Virus record (IMG/VR): IMGVR_UViG_3300005747_000203
Span: 1-26,506 of that record
Reading direction: 5' to 3' (one strand)
DNA from: a virus
DNA length: 26,506 nt
The translations under genes and the position numbers were made by a program. The notes below the pieces were generated by a model, which searched no databases, was not told where the DNA came from, and saw only the letters and a program-made list of their open reading frames with translations. Of this stretch, positions 1 to 25,782 are shown in pieces. Each line of letters opens with the position of its first letter. Position 1 is the first letter of the stretch.

Positions 1-2407
1 CAAATTCATCTTCATATTGATAATATAACTCAGACCATTTTTTTTCAAATGGAGTTTGTGATACTTTAGTTTGTTCTAATTCTTTTAATTTATTATTTAA
101 TTTAGTTAATTTATTAACATTAATTTTGTCTTTTGATTGTTCAAATCTAATGTTTTCTTTTACATTTCTTATGTTATCTTCTACTTCTACTATTTTAGTT
201 TTATTAAATATTTTTCTTTTTTTCCACAATTCAGGATAAAAAGCTCTCATTCTTTGATTAACATTGGCAACCCTAGAGGCTCTATTAAATATGTTTTTCA
301 TTAAAGTGTCACCAGCTCCAAGTAATTTTAAAGTCATAAAAGATAGCTTACCAAGAGGTGAACCTGTAGTTGCCATCCATTGCTTTATTTTACTATCAGA
401 AGCTTTTAATTGCTCAAAATATGTTTCCATATTTCTTTGCTGTCTGCCATCAAATCTATGTTCTAAAGAATCTCCAATACTTCTGTTAGCTTTCCATGAT
501 AGCTGCGCTTTTTTAGCAGCAATGTGAAAAAATCTTAATTGAGACAATAATAAATCACTTGCCATTTGCATTTGATTTATACCTTGTGCTCTATTTCCTT
601 TAGCAAAAGTAATGACACCGCCAGTAAATTGTTCTATAATACTTGTTTGAAATTTAACAGCAGAAGAAAGTAAGTTAATTTCATGTGTTGTTGGGTCACC
701 TAATAAATTAGCTGTTGTAAATTCATTTAAAGCTTCAAAGAAACTAACATTTTTTTCTTTTGTTTTTCTATTAACATCATTAATTAATTTACGCATTTTG
801 TTATCGTTGTCACTTATCGCCGCTAAATCATTGACAACTTTTATTTTCTGTTCTGGCGTAAGTTTTTTAATTTTGGCAAGAATAGATGGTAACTCTTGAC
901 TAATAGCAATATCTGTTTCCATTCTTAATTTATCAGCTTCAGTCATCTCAACCATTAATTTTTGTTGATTTAAAGCGTCTGATACTCCTTGCACAGTATT
1001 TACATGGTTTTTAATAAGTACAGATTTTTCTTCTATAGACTGTAGAATTTTATCAGTAACTGCTAATTTTTCATCTATGTCAACAGCGTTGTCTGCTATT
1101 TTTCTTATTTCAGATACTTCTTTAGATTTATTTAAAATGTTTACACGACCTGCATAAATAGTTGGAGCTAAATCTGGTGCAATTTTGGCAACTGTTTTTA
1201 ATTCTGCGTCTAATGCATCAGCATTATTTTTACCTAATAATTTAGATGCTTTAACTTTTATTTGATTAAATAAACCAACTCTTTCAGTTGTTCTTATTTC
1301 TCCTTTTTTAACTAAATTATTTATTGTTAATTTAATTTCTTGAATAATTACATTGTGTGGTTCATCAGGATTTATTTTACTTAGATTAATAATAGGAGTT
1401 TTTCTTTTAATGTTGGTTGCTGCATTATTAATAGTGTTAACTTGACTTGTTCTTTCAGTAATTTTTGATGGTGCTTTTTGTGATGGTGTTTCAGCATTGT
1501 AGCTTTTAGATTTACCGTCTTTACCTGAAAAAGTTCCATCAGATTTGCTGCCAGCAAAACCAAAATCTCTTGAGTAATCACCTTTAAAACCTTCTCCAAT
1601 ATCATAAAATTTACCAGCTTTACCTTTAGCTGACCAAGCGGCCATTCCAGCACCTATAGTGCCTTGAGCTATTCCACCTGCTGCCGCAGATGTAAGCGTT
1701 CTAGTTAAATTATAATCAGTCATTAAACCAGCATCAATTTCAGCGGTTTGTCTTGCCACGTCTGTACCACCCGCAATTGCCGCACCAAACGCAGCTTCTT
1801 TCGCTCCTATTTCAAGTGCCACTTTCTTTTGCGCTTGTTTAACAAATTGGTCTTTAGTAAGTGCTTCTAAAGCTGTTTTACCAGCTTCTCTGGCAATAAC
1901 TTTACCAGCACCAAGTGTGAATAAATTAAGAGGGTCAGCGACTAATGCAGGAACAAAATCTTTAGCCCACTTAACAAAACCTATAGTTTCACCACCAAAA
2001 TAAGGAAGGTCAGCATATACTTGTGTTATTTCTGCCCAGTCTGATTTGTATGTTTCATCTTTAGCTAATACTTGTCCAACATCATTTGTAATACCAACAG
2101 TGTTGTACTCGCTCCAAATCCTATCTTGATAAAATTTTTCTATCATTTCAGATTTAGAAAAATCTTCAATCTTTTTACCACCATTAATATCACTAATACC
2201 ACCAGAGTAATATCTTTTTAAAACTGTTTGAAATTCATCTGATTGTAATTTTTCAAGTGCAAGACGTTGTTTGTCTGCTTTTTGCATAGCATCATATTTT
2301 TGTCTTTCAATTCTGTTTCTTCTGTTACGCTTTCTAGCGTCTAAAGCACTTTGCGTTGCATCTTGGGTTTCAGATTCCCAAGCTATTCCTAAATCTATTT
2401 CAGCCAT
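1..2407 (-). CDS. Large internal virion protein, T7 gp16-like (3' end cut by window)
   Basis: An open frame runs from an ATG at 2407 to the left edge without a stop, giving 802 codons; the C-terminus lies outside the window. Its place directly after gp14- and gp15-like genes is that of T7 gene 16, the large inner-core protein ejected into the cell to help form the DNA translocation channel. The first 70 residues are charged and helical (ALDARKRNRRNRIERQKYDA), residues about 170-260 are Ala/Gly-rich, and the rest is Lys/Asn-rich and helical. T7 gp16 begins with a lytic transglycosylase domain; I see no comparable Glu-Ser-Gly catalytic region near the start here. No clear Shine-Dalgarno precedes the ATG, which is 4 bp after the upstream stop. 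The assignment rests on position and size more than on a motif. Confidence 0.8.
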   Translation of the reverse strand, partial: MAEIDLGIAWESETQDATQSALDARKRNRRNRIERQKYDAMQKADKQRLALEKLQSDEFQTVLKRYYSGGISDINGGKKIEDFSKSEMIEKFYQDRIWSEYNTVGITNDVGQVLAKDETYKSDWAEITQVYADLPYFGGETIGFVKWAKDFVPALVADPLNLFTLGAGKVIAREAGKTALEALTKDQFVKQAQKKVALEIGAKEAAFGAAIAGGTDVARQTAEIDAGLMTDYNLTRTLTSAAAGGIAQGTIGAGMAAWSAKGKAGKFYDIGEGFKGDYSRDFGFAGSKSDGTFSGKDGKSKSYNAETPSQKAPSKITERTSQVNTINNAATNIKRKTPIINLSKINPDEPHNVIIQEIKLTINNLVKKGEIRTTERVGLFNQIKVKASKLLGKNNADALDAELKTVAKIAPDLAPTIYAGRVNILNKSKEVSEIRKIADNAVDIDEKLAVTDKILQSIEEKSVLIKNHVNTVQGVSDALNQQKLMVEMTEADKLRMETDIAISQELPSILAKIKKLTPEQKIKVVNDLAAISDNDNKMRKLINDVNRKTKEKNVSFFEALNEFTTANLLGDPTTHEINLLSSAVKFQTSIIEQFTGGVITFAKGNRAQGINQMQMASDLLLSQLRFFHIAAKKAQLSWKANRSIGDSLEHRFDGRQQRNMETYFEQLKASDSKIKQWMATTGSPLGKLSFMTLKLLGAGDTLMKNIFNRASRVANVNQRMRAFYPELWKKRKIFNKTKIVEVEDNIRNVKENIRFEQSKDKINVNKLTKLNNKLKELEQTKVSQTPFEKKWSELYYQYEDEF

Positions 2408-9900: not shown

Positions 9901-10146
9901 CTATCTACATTTCCATTTACGTAATGCTAAAGCTTTTCTTGTAGGCTGACCATTTGGTTTTTTCATAGCCCCTTTTACTCCAGACATACGTGCACAGAAA
10001 CTAGCTCTACGCTTTGCAGCTTTAGAACCTCTTTTTACTTTTCCTGTAACTGGAGCTTTTAAATTTGCACCAGTTTTATTTTTAAAATATTTCCTTCCAG
10101 CAGCGTTTAAACCACCAGAAGGAGATTGATATCTTTTAGCAGGCAT
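9901..10146 (-). CDS. Small basic protein (DUF6321-like)
   Basis: This 81-aa Lys/Arg-rich protein begins MPAKRYQSPSGGLNAAGRKY and ends WKCR, with RASFCARMSG in the middle. I recognise it as a conserved small protein of marine phages resembling DUF6321; its function is not established. It is the last of three consecutive tiny basic genes between scaffold and capsid, 3 bp after the previous one. Two Cys (RASFCAR and WKCR) could be redox- or metal-related, but no zinc motif is complete. A capsid- or DNA-associated role is only an inference from charge and position. Confidence 0.78.
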   Translation of the reverse strand: MPAKRYQSPSGGLNAAGRKYFKNKTGANLKAPVTGKVKRGSKAAKRRASFCARMSGVKGAMKKPNGQPTRKALALRKWKCR

Positions 10147-14366: not shown

Positions 14367-16121
14367 TTATCCTTCGCATGCCAAGCAGCTATCTGCTTCA
14401 GCTATTATTGTTCGTTCTACTTTTAATGATACTAGCTCTGCTCTTTTGATTGCTTCAGAACGACAGTAGTACAATGTTTTTAATTTCTTTTTCCAAGCTA
14501 ACATGTGCATGTTGTGCAACTCTTTAATGTTAACATCAGCAGGCACAAATATATTTATGCTTTGACTTTGACAAATGTATTGTTGCCTATCTGCTGCATG
14601 TTCAATTACCCACTGTTGATTTATTTCAATAGCAGTTTTGAAAACATCTTTCTCATGCTCTGACAAATCTTCGAGATGCATAACCGAGCCTCTTTTAGCG
14701 ACAATGGATGTCCATATATCATCATTATTTAATCCTTTCTTTTCTAGTAATTGTTCTAAATATTTGTTCTTTACCAAGAATGACCCAGACATAGTTTTTT
14801 GCACGTATGCATTTGCTCTGTATGGTTCTACTGAAGGTGAAGTTGTCCCACATATAATAGATGAAGAAGCGTTTGGTGCGATGGCTAACAAGTGTGCATT
14901 ACGCATCCCTGTGTGTTCCATATCAGGTGCTTCTCCTCTTTTAACTGCAAGTCTTTTACTTTCTTCAACAGCTTCTGTCTTTAACTTTTTAAATATTTGC
15001 ATGTTTAAAGACTTAGCTAAAGCTGATTCAAAAGGTATGTTCTTAGATTGTAAGTATGAATGAAAACCCATAGCACCTAAGCCAAGACTTCTTTCACTTA
15101 CTGCACTGAACTTGGCTCTAAATAATTCTTCAGGAGCGTGCTCAATAAAATGTTGTAGTACGTTATCTAAAAATCTAATTAAATCAGGAATAAACAAAGC
15201 ATCTTTTTTCCACTCATCATATTTTTCAATGTTAACACTAGACAGACAACAAACTGCTGTTCTGTTTTCGCTAGTAGGTAAAGTTATTTCACTACATAAA
15301 TTAGAGTGATGAACTTTTAATCCTAAATCTTTTTGTGTTTGTGGAAGAGCCTCATTAATAGTATCAATAAAAGAAATGTAAGGTTCACCAGTAGTAACTC
15401 TTGTTTCTAATATCTTTAACCACAAGTCTCTAGCTGATACAGTTCTAACTATTTCTTTTGTGTGTGGGTCAATTAAATTCCAACTGTCATCTTGAGTAGG
15501 GTTCTGAATACATTTGTCTATTAGTTCCATAAAATCATTAGTAACATTTACACCGTGATGTAAGTTAAGATTTTTTCTATGAGAATCTCCACCTGTAGGT
15601 TTTCTCATTTCAGTAAATTCTATAATCTCAGGATGCGAGATGTCTATGTAAGATGCATAACTTCCTCTTCTAGTTTTACCTTGAGAGAATGCTAGTATCT
15701 CAGAATCAACTACATGCATAAAAGGAATTGTGCCTGAGCTTTGACTTCCACCTGAAGTAGCTGTTCCATCGGAACGCACATGTCCCCAGTAACCACCAAT
15801 GCCACCACCAACAGAAGCAAGCCATGCGTTCTCTGTGTAGTGCCCTGTTAAACCTTGTCTACTATCTCCAACATAATTTAAAAAACATGAGATAGGCATG
15901 CCACGTTTAGTTCCGCCGTTAGATAAAATAGGCGTAGAAAACATAAACCACAATTTAGATGCGTAGTTATAAATTCTGTCAGCCATTTCATCGTTGTCAG
16001 AGAAAGCTTTTGCTGCTCTCATAAACGCATCTTGTGGTGAAGTTTCTTCTGGTAATAAATATCTATCTTGTAATGTTTTCTTACCAAAGTCTGTTAATAA
16101 ATTATCTCTGCTATACTCCAT
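14367..16121 (-). CDS. nrdA: Ribonucleotide reductase class I, alpha subunit
   Basis: The 584-aa catalytic subunit carries the expected motifs: TPILSNGGT and Cys79 (ISCF), which would be one half of the active-site redox pair; NLCSE near residue 275 with the thiyl-radical Cys and its Asn and Glu partners; CCLSSVN near residue 290 with the second Cys of the pair; PNASSSIICGTTSPSVEPY; a Tyr pair in LYYCRS near residue 550; and a C-terminal CLACEG that would shuttle electrons. E. coli NrdA is 761 aa; the start here is at the core domain, so the N-terminal ATP-cone is absent. It overlaps speD by 11 bp. It supplies dNTP precursors for phage replication. Confidence 0.95.
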   Translation of the reverse strand: MEYSRDNLLTDFGKKTLQDRYLLPEETSPQDAFMRAAKAFSDNDEMADRIYNYASKLWFMFSTPILSNGGTKRGMPISCFLNYVGDSRQGLTGHYTENAWLASVGGGIGGYWGHVRSDGTATSGGSQSSGTIPFMHVVDSEILAFSQGKTRRGSYASYIDISHPEIIEFTEMRKPTGGDSHRKNLNLHHGVNVTNDFMELIDKCIQNPTQDDSWNLIDPHTKEIVRTVSARDLWLKILETRVTTGEPYISFIDTINEALPQTQKDLGLKVHHSNLCSEITLPTSENRTAVCCLSSVNIEKYDEWKKDALFIPDLIRFLDNVLQHFIEHAPEELFRAKFSAVSERSLGLGAMGFHSYLQSKNIPFESALAKSLNMQIFKKLKTEAVEESKRLAVKRGEAPDMEHTGMRNAHLLAIAPNASSSIICGTTSPSVEPYRANAYVQKTMSGSFLVKNKYLEQLLEKKGLNNDDIWTSIVAKRGSVMHLEDLSEHEKDVFKTAIEINQQWVIEHAADRQQYICQSQSINIFVPADVNIKELHNMHMLAWKKKLKTLYYCRSEAIKRAELVSLKVERTIIAEADSCLACEG

Positions 16122-16539
16122 TTTTAATACTTTCTAATGCTGAAGCTGTTGAGTAAGCTAAATCAGACATTTGTGGTACAGTAATTAAACTTCTGTCTCT
16201 GTCTAATATTTTGTACTGCACTTTAATTGGTTTAAATTGTTCTAAATGTTTAAAGATTTTATCTTCATGCATATCACTACAAGTGTAAACATCTAGTTGT
16301 AACATTGAAGGATTTTTTTCATCCCATACATGCAGTGCTATGTGTGATGTTTCAATAACAGCGACACAAGTAGCCCCTTTGTTTCCTTTTTTATCTACGT
16401 AATAGGCCTGCGGCTCACCAAGTAACTTCATTTTAATTTTAGGAACTAATTCTGTAACCCATTTAGTTACTTCTTCTATACTTTTAGGTGGCTGAGTTAC
16501 TTCAGCTCTTACTATTAAATGGTTGTGTTGTAATATCAT
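16111..16539 (-). CDS. speD: S-adenosylmethionine decarboxylase-like pyruvoyl enzyme
   Basis: The 142-aa protein matches the bacterial/archaeal SpeD family, which self-cleaves before a Ser to form a pyruvoyl group and decarboxylates S-adenosylmethionine for spermidine synthesis. Visible are MKLLGEP near residue 37, ETSHIALHVW at 63-72 and LDVYTC at 82-87. Ser65, His70 and Cys87 match the Ser63, His68 and Cys83 of the Thermotoga enzyme. The residue before the cleavage Ser is Thr64, where Thermotoga has Glu and E. coli has Lys. Some SpeD homologues act on arginine or ornithine, so the substrate is not certain. It lies between DUF3310 (1-bp overlap) and nrdA (11-bp overlap), as one operon. Confidence 0.85.
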   Translation of the reverse strand: MILQHNHLIVRAEVTQPPKSIEEVTKWVTELVPKIKMKLLGEPQAYYVDKKGNKGATCVAVIETSHIALHVWDEKNPSMLQLDVYTCSDMHEDKIFKHLEQFKPIKVQYKILDRDRSLITVPQMSDLAYSTASALESIKNGV

Positions 16540-19956: not shown

Positions 19957-20180
19957 TAATGTTTAGTTACTATCTTTGTTTCTAATTGCCAAGCTTCATA
20001 CGATTGCTCACACAATTCAGAAATAGCTTTGTCAATAAATTTTTTTGTTTTTTCATCAGGAACTAAAACAGCTATGGTTTTTTCTGGCTGTAATTTAGCT
20101 TTTAATAAATGAGTTATGACATATTCTGTCCAGCTCATTGCTTCTATTTTGTCATTAATTTCTTGTTTACGCAAAGTCAT
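19956..20180 (-). CDS. Hypothetical protein, 74 aa
   Basis: I do not recognise this protein. It is helical and charged, with SWTEYVITHLLKAKLQPEKT near residue 16 and a central VLVPDEKTKKFIDKAI segment. There is no membrane segment or metal motif. Its start has AGGAG 7 nt upstream and lies 14 bp inside the end of primase-helicase. Tight overlaps on both sides put it in the replication operon. Confidence 0.7.
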   Translation of the reverse strand: MTLRKQEINDKIEAMSWTEYVITHLLKAKLQPEKTIAVLVPDEKTKKFIDKAISELCEQSYEAWQLETKIVTKH

Positions 20181-21765
20181 TGTTCACTCCTGTCATTGTT
20201 TCGGTTAAACATCCAGTAGCTAAATCGTAATGCAAGTCACATGCTTTACCAGTTTCACCACTAAATCTATTTTTTAAAACGTTTACTTGTGCTATGTTAT
20301 TCTCAGCTTGCAAATCTCTGGACAAACTAATGACCATATCGCTAAGTTGAGCAATGGATTGAGAGCCTCTAAGACTGTTCATAGATACCTGCACCCCATC
20401 TTCATAACCTTTGTTGCCATCTTTAGTTCTGGACAAATGAGATACTAACAGTAACCCAATACCAGTCTCTTCAACTAAAGTTCTAAGTTTTGATACAAAG
20501 TAATCAATAAGCTTTCGCTCATCACTTGTGTGCTCATCACCCAAGGCTGACAATGCCATGTGTAAATGGTCAAGAACTACAAAATCAACATTGCAGGCTT
20601 TGGCCATGTATCTAATCTTTGAAAGTAAATTGTCAGCTATGGTAGAACCAAAGTGATTATATAAATAAAACTTCCCATTACCAACAGTTGATTTAAAAGT
20701 CTCCTGTAGTTGTTGTTCATTAACTCCCTCTCTAGTTAAATGTAAAGGTTTCTTCAACTTAACACCCATAATACCTAAAGCACTTCTCTTAACTGTTTCT
20801 TCCAAGGCTATGTAACCTACGGTGTAATCTTTTTGAAGCAAGTGCAAGGCTATGTGTCTGCAAAAACTTGACTTACCAACTCCACTTCCTGCGGTAATTG
20901 TAACAAGCTCACCTTTACGCAATCCATGTGTCTTAGTATTAAGACATTCAAACGGGTAAGGAACGCTAACTGTTTTGTCTTCTGCTTTTATTTCTGACCA
21001 CATGTCAGCACCCAATATAATACCATCAGGCCTGTAAGCTTTTGCACTCCACATACAATTAGTAAGCTCTGCTGTTTTACCTGCTAACAACATTTCATTA
21101 GCATCTTTTAAAGGTAATGTTGCTATCTTACATTTGTTTGGTGAGAATAATTTAGCACATTCTATTGCTGCTTTTTGTCCTGCATCGTCTTGGTCAAACA
21201 TTAAGACAACAGATTCAAAACCTTCAAGCCACTCAAGTTCTTTTTGAATATCTTTTTTAGCTCCTGCTGCACCTGTCTTAATACTTACTGTAGGAAATTT
21301 ATTTGAATTTAATTTACTAACTGTTAAGGCATCTATTTCACCTTCTGTAATAACAATCATTTTACCTTTGTCACGCCATAAATGCTGTCCAAACAATCCT
21401 GATGCTTTTGCATTGCCCAACCACTGAAATGTTTTATCTGGAAATCTTAATTTTTGTGCGACTAAAGTTTTATCTTTGTCGTAGTAATTTGCTATCTGGC
21501 AAGGTCTGCCAAAGTAACTACCAGTTTGATAATTAAATTTTTGTACTGTGTTTAAATCTATTTTTCTTTTTGATAACTCTGCGATATTACCTGTGATAAA
21601 ATCTTTACTAACTTCTTTTTGTATTGGTTGCATATCGTCAAGTCCTTTTTTAATTGTGTTACATGAAAAACAAAAAGTGTGACCATCCGAATACAAAGAA
21701 TTTGCATCGCTTGAGCCACACTCATCGCATGGCGTGTGGTATAAAAACTCACTAGCACTATCCAT
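20167..21765 (-). CDS. DNA primase-helicase, T7 gp4-like
   Basis: The 532-aa bifunctional protein makes RNA primers and unwinds the fork. A four-Cys zinc site (Cys13, Cys16, Cys32, Cys35) forms the primase zinc-binding domain. Toprim landmarks follow: VITEGEIDAL near residue 139 and LMFDQDDAG near 190. The RecA-type helicase has Walker A (GSGVGKSS) near 291 and Walker B (FVVLDHLH) near 395. The C-terminus NNDFA resembles the acidic-aromatic tail that T7 gp4 uses to bind polymerase. The ATG at 21765 has no Shine-Dalgarno and lies inside a small upstream ORF. An internal ATG at codon 45 has one, so a short form is plausible. Confidence 0.96.
   Translation of the reverse strand: MDSASEFLYHTPCDECGSSDANSLYSDGHTFCFSCNTIKKGLDDMQPIQKEVSKDFITGNIAELSKRKIDLNTVQKFNYQTGSYFGRPCQIANYYDKDKTLVAQKLRFPDKTFQWLGNAKASGLFGQHLWRDKGKMIVITEGEIDALTVSKLNSNKFPTVSIKTGAAGAKKDIQKELEWLEGFESVVLMFDQDDAGQKAAIECAKLFSPNKCKIATLPLKDANEMLLAGKTAELTNCMWSAKAYRPDGIILGADMWSEIKAEDKTVSVPYPFECLNTKTHGLRKGELVTITAGSGVGKSSFCRHIALHLLQKDYTVGYIALEETVKRSALGIMGVKLKKPLHLTREGVNEQQLQETFKSTVGNGKFYLYNHFGSTIADNLLSKIRYMAKACNVDFVVLDHLHMALSALGDEHTSDERKLIDYFVSKLRTLVEETGIGLLLVSHLSRTKDGNKGYEDGVQVSMNSLRGSQSIAQLSDMVISLSRDLQAENNIAQVNVLKNRFSGETGKACDLHYDLATGCLTETMTGVNNDFA
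21631..21647 (-). promoter_or_regulatory. Internal ribosome-binding site and ATG in primase-helicase
   Basis: The minus strand has AAGGA, nine bases, then an in-frame ATG at 21633 (codon 45, Met-Gln-Pro). Initiation here would give a 488-aa protein lacking all four zinc-binding Cys but keeping Toprim and helicase. T7 gene 4 uses an internal start in the same way to make gp4B. The full-length start has no comparable site. Confidence 0.55.
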
Positions 21766-21879: not shown

Positions 21880-22305
21880 CTATCTCAACAATTCTTTAAC
21901 ATCGAAGTGTGGAGATAAAGAGCCAGTCACATCTCTGTGACCAACAATTTCAACTTGATTGTATTCCGTCTTTAGTTCAGTAATAAGTTTAACGAGACTA
22001 TCATACTGTTTAAAGGTATAGTTACAATCAGGCTGTCCATTGAGTGCTTGTCCGCCTATGAGACAAACTCCAATAGAATTTTTATTAGATAAAGTTATAT
22101 TATTATCAACGTGAGCTCCTGCAATTTGAATATCTCTACCATCTTGCACTGCCCCGTCTCTAGTTATAACTTTGTGAAACGCACAAGAAAACAATCCGTC
22201 TTTTCTGTGCTGTGTATCTAAATCTGTTACATCCAAGTTTTCACTTGGTTTTGTTTCGGAAGAATGAATTACGATATATTTAGTTTCTTTTCTTATATTG
22301 CTCAT
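21880..22305 (-). CDS. T7 lysozyme (gp3.5) homologue, amidase fold with altered active site
   Basis: The 141-aa protein aligns with T7 gp3.5, an N-acetylmuramoyl-L-alanine amidase that also binds and inhibits T7 RNA polymerase. Conserved parts are IVIHSSETKPS (His14), AFHKVITRDG, DGRD, NSIGVCLIGG and VGHRDV (His123). However, the third zinc ligand (T7 Cys130) is Ser131, the catalytic Lys128 is Ser129, and Tyr46 is Phe43; His133 lies two residues after Ser131. Amidase activity may therefore be lost or rebuilt. I chose ATG at 22305, with AAGGAT upstream, over a TTG two codons earlier. It overlaps the endonuclease stop by 4 bp and is followed by a strong terminator. Confidence 0.88.
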   Translation of the reverse strand: MSNIRKETKYIVIHSSETKPSENLDVTDLDTQHRKDGLFSCAFHKVITRDGAVQDGRDIQIAGAHVDNNITLSNKNSIGVCLIGGQALNGQPDCNYTFKQYDSLVKLITELKTEYNQVEIVGHRDVTGSLSPHFDVKELLR

Positions 22306-22718
22306 AACCAATCCTTTGGAACGTGTTTGTCAGCATACGTAAAACCGTATTTCTCACACCACATCCCATATGTTGTTTTTGATTTTTTACTAATTCTAGT
22401 TTTTGAATTGCTAAAGATAAATCTAATATCTAATTTTGGGTGTTGTTCTTTAATAAGACGCATCTTTTGACGGTCTTGAGTTGTAAAGTAACCTTTTGTT
22501 TCAATATAAATATCTTTGTCAATTAAATAAAAATCAGGTGTGTAAGTATGAACCTTTGAAGGCTTAGTGTAATTTAACTTAGTCTTCTCGTATTCATACT
22601 TAACACTTTTTGTTTTGAGTTCAGCTGCAATTGCATCTTCCAATCCAGACCTGAACCCATGCACTAAACCAACTTGCTTAGAAGTCAGTTTCGTTTTCCG
22701 TCTCATTGCTAGGTACAT
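22302..22718 (-). CDS. Endonuclease I (Holliday junction resolvase), T7 gp3-like
   Basis: The 138-aa protein closely follows T7 gp3 (149 aa). Active-site residues Glu27 (FRSGLED), Asp62 (TYTPDF), Glu73 and Lys75 (IETKG) correspond to T7 Glu20, Asp55, Glu65 and Lys67. Downstream are LDIRFIFSNSKTRI and a YGMWCEKYGFTYADK segment also matching T7. The enzyme resolves branched DNA and breaks host DNA. Its ATG at 22718 lies 41 bp inside the SSB gene; an ATG four codons later is an alternative. Its stop overlaps the lysozyme-like start as ATGA. Confidence 0.95.
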   Translation of the reverse strand: MYLAMRRKTKLTSKQVGLVHGFRSGLEDAIAAELKTKSVKYEYEKTKLNYTKPSKVHTYTPDFYLIDKDIYIETKGYFTTQDRQKMRLIKEQHPKLDIRFIFSNSKTRISKKSKTTYGMWCEKYGFTYADKHVPKDWL

Positions 22719-23301
22719 TTTCTTCTACTGCCTTTTCTGGTGATGTAAAACCACCTTCTACTTTGTCAAAGCCGTAGCCTTTTGCATTGTCTGCACCACC
22801 TTCAACAAGCTCTGTTATTTGCACAGCTCGCAATCTTAGTGATACACCTGCACCTGCCATAGCTGTATTCCAAGGAACAAGCTCAGCACTTACTTTCATT
22901 TTACTTCCAGACCACACATTGGTATCAACCATTGGTTTTCCAGAACTATCAAAGATAGCAACTTTAAATGGAACTACTTTTCCATCTGAAGTAATGATTT
23001 GTGCTTTACGTTTAAACTTAAACTCAATGTTTCCAGTTTCTTTACCTTCTTCATCAGTTTCAGTAACGTAAGGTGCATTAGCCATTTTTACAGGTTTCTT
23101 GCTTTTCTCCTTAGCTATCTCCATACTCTTTTGCATCTCAGCATCAATCAACGTGACTAATGGCTGAGCCTTATCTGCACTAACTGCAAGATTGACTTTG
23201 TAATGTCCATCTTTATCAAACTTAGTGTCAGGCGTAGTGAGCCAAGCGTATTTACTAACGCCTTCTTCACTAACAATTTTAACATAGTTACTTTTTGCCA
23301 T
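22678..23301 (-). CDS. Single-stranded DNA-binding protein, T7 gp2.5-like
   Basis: The 207-aa protein is similar in length to T7 gp2.5 (232 aa) and has an OB-fold-like beta-rich core followed by an acidic C-terminal tail ending in ENETDF; an acidic tail with terminal Phe is what T7 gp2.5 uses to contact polymerase and primase-helicase. SVSKYAWLTTP-like N-terminal and DTNVWSGSKMKVSAELVPW segments near residue 125 fit marine gp2.5 homologues. AGGAG lies 6 nt before ATG, immediately after promoter-like motif B. It overlaps endonuclease I by 41 bp. Confidence 0.88.
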   Translation of the reverse strand: MAKSNYVKIVSEEGVSKYAWLTTPDTKFDKDGHYKVNLAVSADKAQPLVTLIDAEMQKSMEIAKEKSKKPVKMANAPYVTETDEEGKETGNIEFKFKRKAQIITSDGKVVPFKVAIFDSSGKPMVDTNVWSGSKMKVSAELVPWNTAMAGAGVSLRLRAVQITELVEGGADNAKGYGFDKVEGGFTSPEKAVEENVPSNETENETDF

Positions 23302-23334: not shown

Positions 23335-25782
23335 TTACGCAAAAAAGAACACACTTTCCCTGAGTTGTTTAATATCTAAATCACCTTTTTCAGGGACATC
23401 AGGTAATTTAGAGTGCAGGCTAGGATGTAATTGTTTAAGAACATCATTTCTAAAATTTAATAGAATATCATTTTCCGTAAACATTGTAACAAACGCTTCT
23501 CTCAAAGATTGATTAAGCGTTTCAACATCTCCTGCTGTAGTACCAAAACTATCATGCACGTTACAAAAATTAGTAATTCCTTTTTTGTAAGCAATGTTAA
23601 CAGTCTCCATCATGGCAGCACTGTCAACGCTGTGCACTAAATTAGGTGCTACGCCGTTTCCCATTCTTAGTTTGTCTGTCTTATCAGTCTCGGTGTTAAT
23701 TCTGGGTTTAATAACTTGACCCATTAACATAGCCTTAACCCTTTTAGATTTCATCTCAGGATAAGATTGATATACAGGAAAACCAACTGGTGTAACCCAG
23801 TGAACAGGTAACTGTTCTTTAGCCACTACTCTCGCAATAGTCTGTAAATAATTCATACCAACTCTCGCTGATTTTAAATTATCTCCAATACTATCCCAGA
23901 TAACACTAGCCAAATAGCTAGCAGGCTTAAAAACGTCATCCAAGAACGGATGGTTTTCTCCTTTGTCTTTTCTCTTAGTTAAATCCTCAACAACAAAATC
24001 AGTACATGAGTATCTAGTTGAACCGTAACAAATAGTCATAATACTACGCTTAGTCGTTGAGCGTTTAATGCCGTAGTCAAGCCACAGCTGTGCAAAAGGT
24101 TTGTTTTCTTTCACATCTAATTTTAACTTTTCAATAACAGCATCAGCCACAAGTTGATAAATATCTTGTGGTTTGTCTGTTGGTGTTAAGTTAACAAGCT
24201 TACCTGCTTTTGCATCTTTAAGCATTAACGAATAAACTTGAAGTCCATTACAAGAACCATCAACACTCACTGGTATGTGAGATATAAAGCCCTCGCCATG
24301 TTCTTTAAACTTACGCCATTCATCACAAAATGCCAGAAATTGAAATGCATTAGAAGCGTTTTCCCATCTTCTATTAGTCAACGGGTCATTAGCACATTCT
24401 AAAATCCAGTGTTCATTATCTAATACCCACTGTTCTCTGTCTGATAAAGCAACTTTGTCTTCACCATACATGTTTGCACCGTGTACAGCTAACCAAAAGA
24501 TACCTTTGTTTTCTTTAGTAATAGGCGCACCATTAGTAAAAGACAATAAAGCCTTAGCACCTGATATGCTTTGATAATTTAAAAACGCTGGCACACAATA
24601 AGCTCTGCCTCTGAAATCTAATTGCAGCGGAAAGTATAATGTTGCGTAATCTTTAAACTTATCACCAAGCCACATAATTTTAGCATACAGCAAACGCTTA
24701 GAAAATCTTCTAGCATTCTCTGTGTGAGCTATAACGGCCTGCTTCTTCCACACACGCCTAGTGTCAGGGTTCGTATCAATGTCATGCGGTTTGTTAGGTA
24801 TCTCAATGTTTTGAATTGATGGCATTCCACCAACGTCAAGACCTTTGTCCCATGCATCCTGCATTACTTTGAGTACAAACTTATTAACTTTAAAAGGCGT
24901 ATTCTGCATCAAGTTAACAGCGTTATACACTTTTGGCATATCAAAATTCTCAAGTTCTTTTTTAAACAACTTGTTTTTTTGTTTCACCAAATCTAACTCA
25001 GGCATTTCTTTTGTCCAGTAACCCCCACCAACAACAGTTGACCACATTTTAGGTGGCATAACAGTTGGTAAGTATTCTGGGTTTAAGAGTTCATTAAAAC
25101 CATTTCTGTTTTTAATCCATTCTCTAGTTTTTTCTGTTTGTTTGATTATTTTAGCTTTTTTATGATTAATGGTTTCTGTACCAATTTCAATCATACCAGT
25201 AGCATAACACATCAGTTCAACTAATCTAAGACCTACGTGTAACTTAGTTGGTGTCTCCCATTCTTCCCAAGCAGCCACTTCACCTCGTTTTGCGGTCTCT
25301 TTTAGTTTTCTTCTTTTGTATGTGTAATTGAAAGACCTTTTGTCTAAATCTTTTTTAACTGTGTCGTATAACTCAGGGTTTAAAGTTTTAAAGTTTCTAA
25401 GTGATATCTCAGTCTCAACTTTACCGCCAAGGGATATACAGGTAGCCGTTAAAGGTTTGTATTGTGTTATCGTATTGATAATATGCTTGCCTGTAATTAA
25501 AGCAAGTATCTCTGGCTCAACTTCACACATTTTAACAAAAGCAATTGGTGGTTTACCAATCGTTTTCTTAGATGCTTCCTGAAGCCATTCACCAATAGCC
25601 ATTGCTAAAGGTCGTATGGTGTTAGCCACCATTACTTTACCATAACTGGTAACACTTTCTTCTTCTCGTTCTACGTGTGACTGTAAACGCTTGTTGGTTC
25701 TATTCTTACCAAGCGCAGCCATCTCCTTTTCATGTGCCAACTCATCTTTATAAGTAGGCATGCTTTCAATTAATTTAGCCAT
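23335..25782 (-). CDS. Single-subunit DNA-directed RNA polymerase, T7-like
   Basis: The 815-aa protein (T7 gp1 is 883 aa) transcribes the phage middle and late genes. Catalytic landmarks are present: LDFRGRAYCVPAF near residue 388, SVDGSCNGLQ near 507 with the catalytic Asp, KRSIMTICYGS near 574 with the Lys and Tyr of the O helix, and NVHDSFGT near 741 with the second catalytic Asp. The C-terminus ends FFFA, like the FAFA foot of T7 RNAP. AAGGAG precedes the ATG by about 8 nt. Being encoded just before SSB and a lysozyme homologue, it fits the T7 circuit where lysozyme damps the polymerase. Confidence 0.97.
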   Translation of the reverse strand: MAKLIESMPTYKDELAHEKEMAALGKNRTNKRLQSHVEREEESVTSYGKVMVANTIRPLAMAIGEWLQEASKKTIGKPPIAFVKMCEVEPEILALITGKHIINTITQYKPLTATCISLGGKVETEISLRNFKTLNPELYDTVKKDLDKRSFNYTYKRRKLKETAKRGEVAAWEEWETPTKLHVGLRLVELMCYATGMIEIGTETINHKKAKIIKQTEKTREWIKNRNGFNELLNPEYLPTVMPPKMWSTVVGGGYWTKEMPELDLVKQKNKLFKKELENFDMPKVYNAVNLMQNTPFKVNKFVLKVMQDAWDKGLDVGGMPSIQNIEIPNKPHDIDTNPDTRRVWKKQAVIAHTENARRFSKRLLYAKIMWLGDKFKDYATLYFPLQLDFRGRAYCVPAFLNYQSISGAKALLSFTNGAPITKENKGIFWLAVHGANMYGEDKVALSDREQWVLDNEHWILECANDPLTNRRWENASNAFQFLAFCDEWRKFKEHGEGFISHIPVSVDGSCNGLQVYSLMLKDAKAGKLVNLTPTDKPQDIYQLVADAVIEKLKLDVKENKPFAQLWLDYGIKRSTTKRSIMTICYGSTRYSCTDFVVEDLTKRKDKGENHPFLDDVFKPASYLASVIWDSIGDNLKSARVGMNYLQTIARVVAKEQLPVHWVTPVGFPVYQSYPEMKSKRVKAMLMGQVIKPRINTETDKTDKLRMGNGVAPNLVHSVDSAAMMETVNIAYKKGITNFCNVHDSFGTTAGDVETLNQSLREAFVTMFTENDILLNFRNDVLKQLHPSLHSKLPDVPEKGDLDIKQLRESVFFFA

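Follow-up and report, generated by a model that had tools for sequence, protein, structure and literature searches.

A T7 lysozyme homologue with replaced amidase residues in a Pelagivirus fragment, and the separate terminase-linked endolysins of its relatives

The window, i.e. the whole stretch of DNA analyzed here, comprises positions 1-26,506 of virus record IMGVR_UViG_3300005747_000203 and is a fragment of a T7-like Pelagivirus (SAR11 phage). Its minus strand carries, in T7 order, the genes for RNA polymerase, single-stranded DNA-binding protein (SSB), endonuclease I, a gp3.5-like protein, primase-helicase and DNA polymerase, followed by ribonucleotide reductase and structural genes (Table 1). 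The gp3.5-like gene is present in one copy and lies between endonuclease I and primase-helicase, as it does in T7-like genomes. Among the matches listed, the closest cultured phages are Pelagibacter phages HTVC031P, HTVC142P, Eistla and HTVC168P of the genus Pelagivirus (71-74% gp3.5 identity), and HTVC109P gp3.5 is 57% identical. The nearest matches listed by gp3.5 are two contigs of 6-7 kb (L005 and L006). The window ends inside a gp16-like gene and therefore lacks the tail fibre, the terminase and the right end of the genome. The right end was sought with the partial gp16-like protein in a viral scan, where a 92% identical record (L464) stops short of the terminase.

Table 1. Positions in the window of the gp3.5-like gene, its key codons and the neighboring genes
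Feature	Positions	Strand	Remark
T7 gp3.5-like gene, 141 aa, amidase residues replaced	21880..22305	minus	CDS 22305 down to 21880, ATG start
His14 codon = T7 His17, zinc ligand kept	22264..22266	minus	invariant in 192/192 aligned rows
Phe43 codon = T7 Tyr46	22177..22179	minus	alignment to T7 gp3.5
His123 codon = T7 His122, zinc ligand kept here; Cys/Tyr in other Pelagivirus clades	21937..21939	minus	
Ser129 codon = T7 Lys128	21919..21921	minus	alignment
Ser131 codon (TCT) = T7 Cys130, lost zinc ligand	21913..21915	minus	alignment
His133 codon = T7 Ser132; candidate replacement ligand of the original prediction	21907..21909	minus	
Endonuclease I (T7 gp3), overlaps gp3.5-like gene start	22302..22718	minus	Phage_endo_I E 3.5e-51
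Single-stranded DNA-binding protein (T7 gp2.5)	22678..23301	minus	SBB_T7 E 1.8e-14
T7-like RNA polymerase, putative partner of the gp3.5-like protein	23335..25782	minus	RNA_pol E 2.7e-107
Primase-helicase (T7 gp4)	20167..21765	minus	

Elsewhere in the window, an S-adenosylmethionine decarboxylase gene (16111-16539; AdoMet_dc E 1.4e-14) lies beside the ribonucleotide reductase genes, and one is also annotated in HTVC109P. A small, very basic DUF6321 protein (9901-10146; E 7.1e-26) is encoded near the capsid gene; in PHROG it matches several larger proteins of unknown function, at their C-terminal ends. The gp16 protein of T7 has a lytic transglycosylase domain; the Pfam lytic transglycosylase domain was not found in the gp16-like internal virion proteins of the window (2-2407) and of HTVC109P (L098:17171-20977).

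The gp3.5-like protein belongs by descent to the T7 gp3.5 / Amidase_2 family, on homology, fold and genomic position alike. It matches Pfam Amidase_2 (PF01510; E 1.7e-13, 51.5 bits against a cut-off of 26) and the amidase family PHROG 822 (phrog_822; E 2.6e-42), and phmmer retrieves the T7 lysozyme structures 1LBA and 1ARO at E 1e-22. Its AF2 model (mean pLDDT 86.7) superimposes on T7 lysozyme 1LBA with a Z of 22.9 and an rmsd of 1.1 A, at 37% identity over 134 residues. Chance similarity and a pseudogene were both rejected, on the Amidase_2 and phmmer matches, the fold match to 1LBA, omega and column conservation.

Comparison with gp3.5 taken from the T7 record pairs T7 His17 with His14, Tyr46 with Phe43, His122 with His123, Lys128 with Ser129, Cys130 with Ser131 and T7 Ser132 with His133, which bears out the replacements and the two retained histidines of the original prediction. 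The zinc ligand set His17/His122/Cys130 of a functional T7-type amidase is thus broken at Cys130, and catalytic Tyr46 and Lys128 are likewise both replaced. The gapless alignment on which that prediction was built holds locally: a spacing of eight residues from His to Cys/Ser is common to T7 and the window protein, making the gapless pairing natural at Ser129 and Ser131. It does not extend over the full length, where the window protein has four additional residues near 66-69 and an N terminus shorter by four residues. One MAFFT alignment opens a gap near the Lys128-Ser129 pair and a second has none at these positions. Sequencing error as the source of the residues was rejected, since the proteins of L005 and L006, 98-99% identical, carry the same ones. 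Phe occupies the Tyr46 position in 83/83 tabulated relatives (84 rows with the window).

The consequences of such replacements can be gauged from homologues. The Ts2631 endolysin keeps 10% of its lytic activity with Y58F and 12% with C139S (PMC4573324), and crystals of PGRP-LB C160S contain no zinc (PMC8124813). In T7 itself, loss of amidase activity is cited for Y46F (PMC8124813), and RNA polymerase (RNAP) inhibition is reported as kept in Y46F and K128T (PMC4573324), in agreement with the earlier statement that Tyr46 and Lys128 serve the amidase and not RNAP inhibition. The Tyr to Phe and Cys to Ser replacements together with the loss of Lys128 make it very likely that T7-like amidase activity has been lost in the window protein.

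The extent of these losses was surveyed in gp3.5 proteins from 377 loci, the best 80 per scan of 177, 179 and at least 588 relatives. Complete proteins came from 373 loci; 191 were distinct, giving 192 aligned rows once the window was added. Four incomplete ones were dropped, and the 1550 gp3.5-like records of the phage collection were sampled, and the survey speaks for the sampled proteins. None of the 87 distinct Pelagivirus proteins, window included, keeps His17, Tyr46, His122, Lys128 and Cys130 together. All five are kept in 55/55 proteins of Stopavirus, which are SAR11 phages too, and in 50/50 of T7-like phages plus VP4. The alignment of relatives shows the loss of the complete set to be lineage-wide. 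Written as the states at His17, Tyr46, His122 and Cys130, the Pelagivirus rows divide into HFHS (33, with the window), HFHC (16), HFCC (31), HFYS (3) and HFCS (2), plus two Tyr-bearing proteins, HYCC (HTVC121P) and HYHC (HTVC168P, with Ala at Lys128). For Ser at Cys130, the window's group uses TCT codons (three TCG) and the HTVC021P group AGT, and His122 changed to Cys once (HTVC019P group) and to Tyr twice. Ligand losses recur inside Pelagivirus. Zinc may still be bound by the HFHC proteins and by HTVC168P, in which the three ligands are all present.

On the gp3.5 tree, 17/17 parsimony steps at the five positions fall in Pelagivirus or its stem, which make up 42% of the tree length; the remaining 10.3 substitutions per site pass without one step (naive P 4.6e-7). 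A tree built from the flanking genes needs one step for Tyr46 to Phe (165/191 loci usable, neither Tyr-bearing Pelagivirus protein among them). The same tree reconstructs Ser130 as ancestral for Pelagivirus, at a node with a support of only 0.11. An ancestral Ser130 would imply that Cys was regained in two groups or that the gene recombined or was exchanged, and some Pelagivirus groups may thus have regained Cys130 or exchanged gp3.5. In the HTVC019P group (L004, L089-L093, L159-L161, L322-L367), Cys occupies the His122 position in 34/34 distinct proteins, with Ile at T7 His68, and Cys130 is kept in 32/34. The cleft has thus been reshaped in this group in another, fixed manner, perhaps into a new Cys pair or metal site.

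If amidase activity is lost, the original prediction went on, the phage needs another lysis enzyme, and the relatives do possess a candidate. Among 36 Pelagivirus records fetched, eight were excluded for want of the terminase 3' end (G006, G012, G013, G014, G015, G032, G042, G043), and a lysin-like gene directly follows the terminase in 28/28 of the others. In G008, whose terminase has a broken frame, the downstream endolysin was counted all the same. Of these terminase-linked lysins, 26/28 pass the Pfam cut-off; those of G001 and G007 are missed by the Pfam lysozyme models and were counted on PHROG lysozyme matches, which are weaker for G007 (phrog_7 endolysin, E 0.0036; phrog_13211 tail lysozyme, E 2.8e-7). 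They are of T4 type, pesticin type or glucosaminidases. The 'putative peptidase' of HTVC031P is a pesticin-type muramidase (PF16754, E 1.5e-30, with matches to pesticin structures), HTVC109P has a glucosaminidase and a T4-type lysozyme at this place, and HTVC168P a T4-type lysozyme. Ser at Cys130 and a terminase-linked lysin occur together in 12/28 records, including G011 and G007 (gp3.5 79% identical to the window's). The G011 lysin, aligned to T4 lysozyme, has the Glu, Asp and Thr of the T4 lysozyme catalytic set in place. GenBank already labels the terminase-linked genes lysozyme, murein hydrolase or peptidase, and a pesticin-domain gene is mentioned once in a comparison with an HTVC019P-like genome (PMC5628999).

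By position, no lysin gene follows the terminase in 5/5 Stopaviruses. Three lysin HMMs had no match in 7 Stopavirus records (three of them fragments) or in 15 T7-like records; the null search with PF16754 covered 5 Stopavirus and 13 T7-like records, and the same model did match in another search. The phage of the window would itself be expected to carry a second endolysin, by analogy with its relatives.

Two further features of these endolysins were observed. Four of them (L107:14623-15348, L111:17239-17871, L113:7582-8196 and L446:10697-11413) begin with a common N-terminus that includes a hydrophobic, signal-anchor-like segment. Two of the four continue with a pesticin domain and the other two with a T4-type lysozyme domain, which amounts to a catalytic-domain swap behind one export segment. 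The glucosaminidase of HTVC109P (L098:29134-29652, gp53 region) starts with a signal-like stretch that contains a lipobox-like LASC. It stands next to the T4-type lysozyme, and this phage may therefore have two wall enzymes that differ in location.

Among phage proteins, T7 lysozyme is the textbook case of one with two jobs, and in T7 it also has a role in replication and packaging. The explanation that we favor, with moderate confidence, is that gp3.5 lost its amidase chemistry, that lysis passed to the terminase-linked endolysin, and that gp3.5 was kept as a non-amidase for its RNAP or packaging role. Lysis in Pelagivirus would be carried out by the separate endolysin adjoining the terminase, a T4-type or pesticin-type muramidase, with a glucosaminidase too in one group. 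Once relieved of lysis, gp3.5 would first have lost Tyr46 and Lys128, and the loss of single zinc ligands would have followed, in the window protein through Cys130 to Ser. It would have been retained at its middle-gene position for the other job of the T7 protein, namely binding of the phage RNA polymerase, shutdown of transcription and support of replication and packaging. What the analysis shows is the orthology of gp3.5, its fold and genomic position, its residue losses, the purifying selection on it and, in relatives, the second endolysin. A separate wall enzyme elsewhere in genomes that keep gp3.5 in place suggests that the old enzyme is kept for another job. The endolysin gain and the Tyr46 loss coincide on one branch, which leaves a single event, together with the later losses of ligands, to carry their link. 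The complete ligand sets of the HFHC proteins and HTVC168P and the ancestral Ser130 of the flanking-gene tree likewise count against the favored explanation.

Of the polymerase regulator without wall hydrolysis that had been envisaged, the amidase loss is thus supported, whereas the regulatory role is drawn from what other lysozymes do. Lysozymes of four further T7-like phages inhibit the RNAPs of their own phages, and residue 3 at the N terminus is of importance (PMC10138996). A comparison of RNAPs lends RNAP binding no support: at 17 T7 RNAP positions given as lysozyme contacts in PMC5445346, contact residues are not preferentially conserved, and the window RNAP equals T7 at 5/17, against 35% identity overall, in an alignment that held no Stopavirus RNAP and hence no intact-amidase control. 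The T7 RNAP loop 720-721 is absent from the window RNAP. In T7 and phi15, residue 3 of the N-terminal stretch is important for inhibition, and in the window protein this stretch is shorter; it is shorter still in the intact-amidase Stopaviruses, so that it cuts only weakly against an RNAP role. By analogy with T7, the window protein would be expected to bind RNAP, and regulation of the RNA polymerase or of packaging is probably the reason for keeping gp3.5.

That gp3.5 is instead a decaying remnant, its function lost and its sequence drifting, could be read from the repeated loss of active-site residues and from an omega somewhat above that of the comparison groups. Under a codon model, omega is 0.094 for HFHS, 0.108 for HFHC plus HTVC168P and 0.111 for the HTVC019P group, against 0.058 for Stopavirus and 0.069 for T7-like phages. 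Values still about 0.1 speak against drift: selection on Pelagivirus gp3.5 is slightly relaxed and still strongly purifying. The gene is moreover intact in 373/377 loci, the other four being incomplete extractions, and 51/141 columns are invariant over the 33 distinct HFHS proteins, including His14, Phe43, His65, His123 and Ser131, while synonymous codons change, at His14 and His123 among others. Decay is accordingly highly improbable. The invariance of His14, His65, His123 and Ser131 is also a counter-point to the favored explanation, being more than a pure polymerase binder needs, and it leaves room for a changed function of the cleft, either a rebuilt metal site or a Ser-His site like that of PGRP-SA.

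A rebuilt site would make the protein still a metal-dependent amidase, with zinc held by His14, His123 and Ser131 together with water or His133, and with weak auxiliary wall hydrolysis beside the main endolysin. His14 and His123 never vary in the window's group, Ser131 is paired with His133 in 35/38 distinct Ser-bearing proteins while Cys is paired with Gln133 in 17/17 Pelagivirus proteins of the H/H/C ligand set, and the 12% activity of Ts2631 C139S (PMC4573324) points the same way. Against it stand the zinc-free PGRP-LB C160S crystals (PMC8124813), the replacement of the water-positioning Tyr46 by Phe and the loss of Lys128. His133 as a new ligand, the other proposal of the original prediction, finds no support so far, as 3/38 distinct Ser-bearing proteins lack His133 (L156 has Ser with Gln133) and three that retain it have lost His123. 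We regard a rebuilt amidase as rather unlikely. The animal receptor PGRP-SA has this fold too and carries Ser instead of Cys at the corresponding position, and a non-zinc peptidoglycan site of this kind would let the phage protein bind or trim muropeptides. PGRP-SA (1S2J, Z 14.1) and other PGRPs are among the structural matches of the predicted model, and neither Ser131 nor His14 varies in 36/36 HFHS and HFYS proteins, those with Tyr at His123 included. In PGRP-SA, peptidoglycan is bound by the Ser at the old Cys position (Ser158) and a conserved His (His42), which also cleave DAP-type stem peptides at the L,D bond; this L,D-carboxypeptidase activity on DAP-type fragments is insensitive to EDTA (PMC515366). 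The Ser state is confined to part of Pelagivirus, however, the HTVC019P group having mostly Cys130 with His122 to Cys and His68 to Ile, and Tyr is described as invariant even in non-catalytic PGRPs (PMC8124813), at a position where the window protein has Phe. Such a site is improbable. More speculative, and very improbable, is that the window's Pelagivirus branch independently evolved a PGRP-SA counterpart, whose zinc-free Ser131-His14 site would bind or trim DAP-type muropeptides in the cytoplasm and possibly link wall turnover to phage transcription through RNA polymerase.

To our knowledge, the two jobs of T7 lysozyme have so far been separated only by laboratory mutation. If the favored explanation holds, i.e. 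amidase loss with lysis passed to another gene, an abundant marine lineage appears to have split them in nature, the lytic job going to a swappable endolysin adjacent to the terminase. A search of the open literature found no published report of the lost amidase residues of Pelagivirus gp3.5. As ready-made separation-of-function variants, these proteins would help to establish which of the two jobs is essential. Genes annotated as 'lysozyme' at the Pelagivirus gp3.5 locus are probably not the lysin.

Among known systems, the window protein resembles T7 gp3.5 in fold, in position and in two of three zinc ligands, and differs from it in the replacement of Tyr46, Lys128 and Cys130, in its shorter N terminus and in the second endolysin of its relatives. 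These endolysins are members of the T4-type lysozyme and pesticin-type muramidase families (PF00959, PF16754; PDB matches), encoded by a gene separate from gp3.5 and located outside the window. The non-amidase PGRPs, PGRP-SA and others, share the fold and the Cys-to-Ser change at the zinc ligand, but they are animal immune receptors that keep the Tyr, whereas the window protein has Phe and its peptidoglycan binding is putative. The T7 lysozyme mutants Y46F and K128T, which Cheng et al. reportedly found in 1994 to be amidase-dead with RNAP inhibition kept (as cited in PMC4573324 and PMC8124813), represent a separation of function obtained in the laboratory. In the window protein, by contrast, the changes are natural, combined and accompanied by the loss of a zinc ligand, and the inhibition of RNAP is presumed.
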